Shown piece by piece: positions 30,661 to 31,945 of a stretch of DNA of 61,889 nt. Positions within the stretch are counted from its first letter, which is position 1. Each line of letters starts with the position of its first letter. Source of the DNA: Planctomycetota bacterium (GTDB lineage Bacteria; Planctomycetota; UBA8742; UBA2392); contig JABARW010000042.1 in assembly GCA_019186845.1 (NCBI GenBank), forward strand, positions 1 to 61,889, given 5' to 3'. The notes below the pieces were generated by a model. It searched no databases. It worked only from the letters and a program-made list of their open reading frames with translations, and was not told the DNA's origin. Both the position numbers and the translations under genes were made by a program.

Positions 30661-30685
30661 GAATTTCTACAGCAAGGAGGATCCC

Positions 30686-31945
30686 ATGAAACGATGGACC
30701 CTGTTCGCGCTGGCCCTTTCGCTGCTGGGCGGCGCTGTCACTGTGATGCCCGTAAGGGCCGACGAAGTGCCCAAGGCGGCCGAGGCGCCCAAAATGGGCG
30801 AGAGCCACGCCGCGGCCATCAAGGCCTACGAGAGCTTCCAGGCTGCCCAGAAGACCTCAAGCGCGGCACGCGCGGAAGCCTTGAAGGTCTATCGCGAGGC
30901 CAAGGGCGAAGAGGCCCAGAAGGCGGCACTGGAGAAATACCAGGCCGTGGTGGAAGAACAGAACGCCAAGGTGGAGGCTGCCCGGGACGGGTTTGTCTCC
31001 GCCTTTGACAAGGCCGACGTGGATGGCTGGGACCTCACAGCCCATGCGGAAGTGGTGGAGATGGGCCTGCTGATGTCGGGGAGCCTCAGGCAGGAGAAGG
31101 ACCCCAAGGGCGCCGTTCACTGCTACGAGAAGCTGCTGGAGAAACTTCCCAAGAGCCGCCTGGCAGGCGTGGTACGCAGCAACTACCTGCCTAATGCCCT
31201 GATGATGACGGGTGACTACGAGGCAGCCCAGGTCCGCGTTGAGGCCCTGGTGAAAGAGGCCGATGAAAACCAGAAGCCCGGCATGATGACCACGCTGGGC
31301 GACATCAAGGCCGTTAAGGGCGACCTCGAAGGGGCACAGAAAACCTACGCCGAGGCCCTCAAGCTCATTCCGGACAAGCTTGAGAAGAATGACGTTCGCG
31401 CCAGCGCCAGGCGCTACCTCGAACCCAGGATTGCCCTGATCGGGAAGCCCGCGCCGGAAATCAACAGCAAGCACTGGCTGGGCGCTGAAGCAAGGCCCCT
31501 CTCGGCGATGAGGGGTACCGTGCTGCTGATTGACGTCTGGGCGACGTGGTGAGGCCCCTGCAAGTCAGGCATGCCGGGATTGCATGCCCTTCACAACAAG
31601 CTCTCAAAGGAAGGATTCTCCGTGCTTGGCGTGACGAAGTATTTCAACTCAGGCTCACTGCCGGGCGAAAACGGTGACATGAAGGCCCGCCTGTCCAAAA
31701 CGACCTCCGTCAAGGACATGGACGAAAAGGCGTTCGGCGAACACCTCAAAACCTTCCATGAACGCGTCCAGCCCAGCTACCCCTTCGTGGTGGCGAGCCG
31801 GGAAGAACTCGACGCGTACAAAGTGCCGGGTTACCCCACTCTGTTTGTGGTGAACAAGGCCGGGGTGATCGTTTATGTGCAGGTGGGCGGCGGGCGTGAA
31901 GCCGTCCTCGAGGCCGTCATCCAGCGCCAGCTCAAGGCAAAGTAA
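30686..31945 (+). CDS. Predicted selenoprotein: thioredoxin/TlpA-like with in-frame TGA (Sec289)
   Basis: 419 codons if TGA 31550-31552 is read as selenocysteine. AAGGAGG sits 7 nt before ATG 30686. A signal peptide (LFALALSLLGGAVTVMPVRA) precedes a helical TPR-like region (about 40-250). The thioredoxin domain starts near GKPAPEINSKHW and its active site reads WATW-U-GPCK, with Sec exactly where family members have the first Cys of CxxC. Reading continues in the same frame for 130 residues with the correct fold elements, including the cis-Pro loop VPGYPTLFVVN. Periplasmic thiol/disulfide or peroxide chemistry is likely. A frameshift-free nonsense mutation is the alternative. Confidence 0.8.
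31562..31591 (+). promoter_or_regulatory. Candidate bacterial SECIS element
   Basis: GGCATGC (31568-31574) and GCATGCC (31582-31588) pair perfectly around the loop CGGGATT. AAG/CTT (31562-31564/31589-31591) extends the stem across a 3-nt TCA bulge. The loop starts 22 nt after the TGA and has G among its first two bases, which fits the bSECIS rule. It should recruit SelB to decode the TGA. Confidence 0.65.

Follow-up and report, generated by a model that had tools for sequence, protein, structure and literature searches.

A reading frame with a single TGA at a thioredoxin active site

The window analysed here, a stretch of 61,889 nucleotides from a planctomycete assembly, contains a forward-strand frame that starts at ATG 30686, ends at TAA 31943-31945, and is open except for a single TGA at 31550-31552 (Table 1). 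Beyond this TGA, the same frame continues for 130 sense codons. Read through, it encodes a product of 419 residues, with WATW-U-GPC at residues 285-292 and the motif VPGYP at residues 380-384. A first-pass annotation of this DNA, made from the letters alone, had placed the TGA at the first cysteine of a CxxC active site, and relatives that carry WATW-C-GPC at this point bear this out.

Table 1 Features at the locus, in positions of the window.
Feature	Position	Strand	Remarks
NicO/RcnA-type metal transporter gene, His-rich loop	29104..30660	+	ends in TGA, 25 nt before the predicted selenoprotein gene
Shine-Dalgarno AGGAGG, 5 nt upstream of ATG 30686	30675..30680	+	
Predicted selenoprotein gene: predicted signal peptide, helical/TPR-like arm, TlpA/ResA-like thioredoxin domain	30686..31945	+	syntenic Cys orthologue
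Predicted Sec-type signal peptide, residues 1-25	30686..30760	+	by eye; model segment low-confidence
Long helical hairpin, residues 39-109	30800..31012	+	structure model
TPR-like helical repeats, residues 117-251	31034..31438	+	weak Pfam TPR matches below cut-offs
TlpA/ResA-like thioredoxin fold, residues 252-417; VPGYP at 31823-31837	31439..31936	+	
In-frame TGA, predicted Sec codon, residue 289, first position of U-G-P-C	31550..31552	+	
bSECIS-type hairpin, stem 31568-31574 / 31582-31588, loop 31575-31581 (CGGGAUU)	31568..31588	+	
Open piece downstream of the TGA that could pass as a separate gene for a gene caller	31571..31945	+	

The read-through protein matches PF08534 at 43.6 bits (cut-off 26.6) and PF00578 at 42.7 bits (cut-off 26). 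An AlphaFold2 model, built with Cys in place of Sec, is confident across the TGA (mean pLDDT 90.7, pTM 0.84), with low confidence for residues 1-27. In the PDB, it matches ResA and a DsbE-like protein best, and TlpA comes at rank 42; in Foldseek, ResA 2h1b is matched with an E-value of 2.3e-7 and a TMt of 0.86. The protein misses the curated NCBIfam cut-offs of ResA, TlpA, and DsbE, scoring 46.5, 45.9, and 44.8 bits where 170, 230, and 123.15 are set. With a Redoxin/AhpC-TSA domain and a ResA/TlpA fold, it is a member of the TlpA/ResA-like thioredoxin superfamily. The earlier claim that a thioredoxin fold continues for 130 codons past the TGA is upheld by the VPGYP motif and the confident model.

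At the N-terminus, we found by eye MKR, a hydrophobic stretch, and an A-x-A-like site (VRA/DE), and the 419-residue product is likely exported by way of this predicted signal peptide. The TPR-like region that had been described as fused before the thioredoxin domain appears in the model as a helical/TPR-like arm; Pfam TPR models match the read-through protein only below their cut-offs. Elsewhere, in genome G015, a TGA-bearing TPR-TlpA frame (L027/L133, contig C84) continues to the end of the contig and takes in another copy of the TPR-like arm, a tandem fusion.

Conservation of the TGA codon and of the sequence beyond it

We searched 119 genomes, including the gene's own (G000), with the protein as query. 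The codon is TGA in five orthologues (G000, G001, G002, G006, and G015) and TGC in five full-length TPR-TlpA relatives (G003, G004, G024, G053, and G115), so that both states for which a homologue search had been proposed are found; the four TGA orthologues from other genomes share 35-90% protein identity with ours. The TGC copy of G004 is syntenic: the NicO gene precedes it here too, and the genes that follow belong to the same families. Because G004 retains SelA and has four other TGA-bearing TlpA-like genes, its Cys is no sign of a lost Sec trait.

In the full-length Cys homologues, a single gene carries both halves, and that of G004 is syntenic; the downstream part is not the separate gene in homologues that the first-pass annotation had named as telling against its reading. 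In three pairs within the genus, dN/dS is 0.095, 0.15, and 0.214 after the TGA; before it, the same three pairs give 0.157, 0.308, and 0.315. Judged by these ratios, purifying selection acts more strongly on the 130 codons downstream of the TGA than on the upstream part, which is not what a real stop would leave.

These observations bear on the reading of the TGA as a true stop, which would yield a helical/TPR product of 288 residues and make the remainder a decaying remnant or a separate gene. Database entries look like this: the eight proteins nearest to the window gene are 283-289 aa long, and the five whose sequences we examined all end exactly at WATW. A separate open reading frame could also begin at ATG 31571, but this open piece has neither a Shine-Dalgarno sequence nor the active site. 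Termination at the TGA would split the thioredoxin fold inside its active site, the downstream codons are the more constrained part (dN/dS 0.10-0.21), the Cys orthologues are single genes, and TAA or TAG occurs at this place in none of 392 genomes (see below). We therefore regard a true stop as highly improbable.

The same splitting is seen in the relatives of a second WATW-U-GPC protein of this genome, P0028: 39 of its 59 database relatives are pieces of 249-258 aa. Six NCBI-named pieces that we examined start a few codons past the TGA and lack the active site; they are annotated as hypothetical, redoxin-domain, or TlpA-family proteins. The word 'selenoprotein' appears in none of the named entries among the P0028 relatives, most entries being nameless. 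The relatives of both the window gene and P0028 are mis-annotated in the databases; TGA-bearing TlpA/ResA-like genes probably escape notice there through being split at the TGA by gene callers.

A tree of 24 TPR-TlpA proteins, in which three database proteins cut off at WATW were counted as TGA, unites these three with the own genus in a single clade (100/100). The TGA copies from G006 and G015 are placed among Cys and Ser copies, and G115, with Cys, provides the sister of the G015 copy (100/98). Three state changes are needed on this tree, two of them forced by well-supported branches. Support is weak at the branchings near G004, G006, and the Ser paralogue, and the Ser-type row of G013 is a long branch whose placement is unsure.

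Selenocysteine machinery and the downstream hairpin

The own genome (3.74 Mb in 89 contigs, 87.65% complete) contains all four of selA, selB, selC, and selD; a lack of selB or selC, which the first-pass annotation had said would speak against a selenoprotein, is not what we see. The two pieces of SelB together score 318.9 bits, above a cut-off of 242.25. The tRNA-Sec gene (selC), with anticodon UCA, is located about 0.8 kb past the 3' side of the selA match on the same contig (G000:C40:20962-22907; L008, L016), and selB (C24) and selD (C2) are found on other contigs. SelD has an in-frame TGA of its own, at an active site that reads G-TGA-GCK.

Bacterial SECIS elements are described by a rule that takes in a stem of 4-16 bp, a loop of 3-9 nt with G in loop positions 1-2, a spacing of 16-37 nt, and an energy of -7.5 kcal/mol or lower (PMC13188914). 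The window hairpin, GGCAUGC-CGGGAUU-GCAUGCC, begins 15 nt past the TGA and fits this rule, as had been claimed: it has a 7 bp stem and a 7-nt loop that starts 22 nt past the TGA, with G at loop position 2, and reaches -10.2 kcal/mol. We discarded the stability of the local fold as stand-alone evidence for a SECIS element; it is no greater than that of shuffled sequences (z -0.03; z 0.30), and a competing fold is present. The hairpin is therefore convincing only through comparison across loci.

In a first set of loci, the rule is passed by 9 of 16 TGA loci, the window gene included, as against 2 of 102 Cys loci; when the 16 TGA loci are recoded synonymously, 100 runs give 0.73 passing loci on average and never more than 3. 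In a second set, of distinct WATW-U/C-GPC stretches, now with the window gene outside the set, 28/64 TGA loci pass versus 1/86 Cys loci (Fisher p 1e-11), and with similar peptides collapsed the counts are 23/56 versus 1/84. The sole passing Cys locus of the 86, L074, is planctomycete. The hairpin counts omit repeated 63-nt stretches, as well as loci in which the fourth active-site position is not Cys (the Ser-type L034 and L145, for instance). Cys controls were drawn in part from a genome scan with the pattern [ILV]D[FV]WATWC, which can return only Cys relatives and supplied 80 loci. With planctomycete Cys loci alone as the control, 28/64 TGA loci pass versus 1/29 Cys loci (p 6e-5). At a laxer -5 kcal/mol, 6 of these 29 Cys loci pass as well, compared to 38/64 TGA loci, so part of the signal is base composition.

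A perfect-stem hairpin that conforms to the rule at -7.5 kcal/mol or better is missing from 36 of the 64 TGA sites, and the G015 orthologue has only a bulged hairpin. The genome's own SelD reaches just -4.4 kcal/mol under the perfect-stem rule; the rule thus misses real elements, and absence under it is weak evidence. Covariation of the hairpin over five orthologues proved equivocal, since the stem does not keep one register across genera (it is displaced in G006 and G015), and we make no claim of compensatory changes. Synonymous constraint under the hairpin is suggestive only, with p-values of 0.014, 0.088, and 0.41 for three pairs.

A 24-base pattern for WATW-TGA-GPC, run against 392 Planctomycetota genomes, finds 70 sites in 52 of them; with TAA or TAG in place of TGA it finds none, nor does the backwards control of the search. 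Among 119 genomes compared by hand, a strong SelA match is present in 25/25 of those that bear the pattern versus 85/119 overall (hypergeometric 7e-5, a value that ignores kinship between genomes). We also considered 150 listed matches of the P0028 type from 23 genomes, in which every TGA position was read for G000, G001, G002, and G009. Among these matches, 101 of 138 in genomes with SelA have a TGA, compared to 0 of 12 in the four genomes without SelA.

Two further readings of the codon can be weighed here. The TGA could be read as another amino acid, through a change of code or leaky suppression, and the frame is indeed equally open when TGA is translated as Trp; but the adjoining NicO gene ends in TGA, which means that TGA also serves as a stop here, and the TGA in our frame is the only one, falls at the catalytic Cys, and is accompanied by a complete Sec system with a tRNA-Sec (UCA) gene. 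This reading strikes us as even less probable than a true stop. The least credible is an assembly or sequencing error in place of a real TGC or TGT. The assembly is fragmented into 89 contigs and the codon is one base away from Cys, but the TGA is kept in four other genomes, which argues against a base error, and recurs in seven paralogues of the own genome; errors, moreover, would neither track SelA nor carry SECIS-type hairpins. Together, the TGA at the catalytic Cys, the presence of selA-selD, the bSECIS hairpin, and TGA homologues conserved past the TGA predict, by the sequence tests we ran, a bacterial selenoprotein.

Paralogues, proposed function, and relation to known selenoproteins

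Searching the own genome with P0028 as query, we found 12 TlpA/ResA-like matches, of which 8, including the window gene, have TGA at the first active-site position; three of the other four have Cys and one has Asp. The eight sites read WATW-U-GPC in three genes and WKIH-U-EPC, WGVK-U-GPC, WGIT-U-APC, WGSN-U-GPC, and WGCG-U-PPC in one each. Several have compact hairpins, such as UGCGGC-AGUU-GCCGCA in two of them; under the rule, a hairpin reaches -7.5 kcal/mol in four of the eight and is missing from one. Counting all sites among the matches listed, there are 9 TGA sites at the active-site position in G001, 8 in G002, and 8 in G009. As one of eight such genes, the window gene likely belongs to an expanded selenium-dependent redox set of the envelope.

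Several of these paralogues have features of their own. Two tandem TGA ResA-like genes (G000:C53:8891-10942; L178, L208, L209) combine WATW-U-GPC with WKIH-U-EPC, each with a C-terminal helical extension; similar tandem pairs are seen in G001 (L221, WATN-U-SPC and WKIH-U-EPC) and G002 (L180, L231). The C-terminal extensions of L178 and L139 match the C-terminal part of NF041382, a VPGUxxT thioredoxin-like selenoprotein model, at 50-75 bits (cut-off 350). At G000:C1:115613-117643 (L211, L212), a paralogue with TGA (WGVK-U-GPC) adjoins one with TGT (WGVN-C-GPC), the two possibly forming a Sec/Cys pair within a single genome. A C-terminal membrane-like segment is present in the TGA ResA-like proteins L177 (G000:C21:35700-38500), L140, and L144, and the tails of L177 and L140 look by eye like zinc ribbons with a double CxxC. 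In L034 (G013), L145 (G001), and L216 (G000:C15), Ser (AGC) or Asp (GAT) stands at the position of the first active-site Cys; these copies are possibly redox-inactive. In L224 (G001:C46), the TGA is followed by G-P-S, with the resolving Cys changed to Ser, and the hairpin UGGGGC-AGUU-GCCCCA is kept.

In thioredoxins of this kind, the first Cys of the CxxC motif attacks the substrate disulfide and the second resolves it; exported members are re-reduced by membrane proteins of the DsbD/CcdA type. From the sequence comparisons above, we think it very probable that TGA 31550-31552 is decoded as Sec, giving a likely exported, periplasmic thiol-disulfide reductase of 419 residues within an expanded set. 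SelB and tRNA-Sec would bind the hairpin and insert Sec at the TGA, and the signal peptide would direct the protein out of the cytoplasm. The selenol of U289 would then attack substrate disulfides, C292 would resolve the mixed selenenylsulfide, and electrons may return through a DsbD/CcdA-type membrane protein; a DsbD-family gene (114.3 bits) is found elsewhere in the genome, at G000:C8. The helical/TPR-like arm probably selects or holds a partner protein.

The neighbouring gene raises the question of a more specific job. The first-pass annotation had called it a Ni/Co exporter, and it is a NicO-family gene by Pfam (41.1 bits, cut-off 27.7). The pair of this gene and the predicted selenoprotein gene, with Sec or Cys, is kept in G000, G001, G002, and G004; in the sequence stretches examined around the G006 and G015 orthologues, there is no NicO match. 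We rejected an operon with NicO as a general rule, given that the pair is found in only 4 of the 6 genomes compared, our own included. The selenoprotein could nonetheless have work tied to NicO, as a metal- or metallochaperone-specific thiol reductase similar to TlpA acting on copper-site proteins. The pair's persistence whether the enzyme has Sec or Cys is consistent with this, as are PDB titles that include TlpA mixed-disulfide structures with ScoI and with cytochrome oxidase subunit II; the missing NicO matches at G006 and G015 and the location of the seven other TGA TlpA-like genes elsewhere in the genome count against it. We consider such a dedicated role rather unlikely, and prefer that of a reductase within the expanded set.

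Use of selenium is usually thought to be sparing, but here eight TGA sites fall within one thioredoxin superfamily in one planctomycete genome, in proteins that are apparently exported. Aerobic bacteria rarely retain selenoproteins, and anaerobic lineages are named as the most enriched (PMC13188914, 2026). Our somewhat favoured account is that a family of Planctomycetota moved its exported thiol-reductase network onto selenium, with 8-9 Sec TlpA/ResA-like paralogues per genome that have their own arms and clients, Cys versions in the minority, and the whole hidden in databases. In this account, the arm may be TPR-like, a set of C-terminal helices, or a membrane anchor with a zinc ribbon, and each arm would stand for its own client. 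Selenium is likely to support much of the redox chemistry in the cell envelope of this group. Because Sec and Cys change within one subfamily and at the same syntenic place, these genes also amount to a natural experiment in which Sec can be compared with Cys in one and the same enzyme.

The protein has relatives on several sides. Exported thioredoxins of the ResA, TlpA, and CcmG (DsbE) types share its fold, the place of the active site, and a likely periplasmic reductase role; they have Cys at the active site and are not known to carry an N-terminal TPR-like arm. The bacterial Sec thioredoxin is small and is not known to have a TlpA insert, arm, or signal peptide. It shares the UxxC active-site chemistry (PF00085) and is listed as experimentally verified (PMC13188914).

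The first-pass annotation had called the protein unlike the standard selenoproteins, which is too broad for its thioredoxin part: UxxC forms of TlpA-like (cd02966), redoxin (PF08534), and Prx-like (PF00578) proteins are already catalogued in prokaryotes (PMC13188914, Table 1), along with a UGC form of TlpA. By their table entries, the PF08534 and Prx-like PF00578 selenoproteins have the same UxxC motif and the same Pfam domains as the best matches of our protein (PMC13188914). The UGC TlpA selenoprotein (PMC13188914) and the model NF041054 (WAxxUGC_long) share with it a ResA-like domain and Sec at the first active-site position; unlike its UGPC, however, the NF041054 type has UGC without the CxxC spacing, and our protein scores 33.2 bits against a cut-off of 300.

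Another close relative is the cd02966 thiol-disulfide isomerase-like selenoprotein of the Sargasso Sea, which agrees with our protein in domain name (TlpA-like) and in motif, with Sec first in UxxC (PMC1088965, PMC13188914); the 2005 survey reported 4 such UXXC sequences (PMC1088965). The accounts of the cd02966 selenoproteins in these two papers mention no helical/TPR arm, paralogue expansion, or planctomycete link. The main text of PMC13188914 contains neither 'planctomycet-' nor 'TPR', and PMC5029168 gives no match for planctomycetes and thioredoxins. PMC4807772, the single paper on selenoproteins of planctomycetes that our search turned up, names FdhA and FmdB in its main text, with thioredoxin only in a reference title. 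Our literature search, confined to open-licence papers, found no description of a TPR-TlpA selenoprotein or a comparable paralogue expansion. UxxC TlpA-like selenoproteins are thus already known, and it is the exported, TPR-fused form and the expansion of its paralogues that look new.
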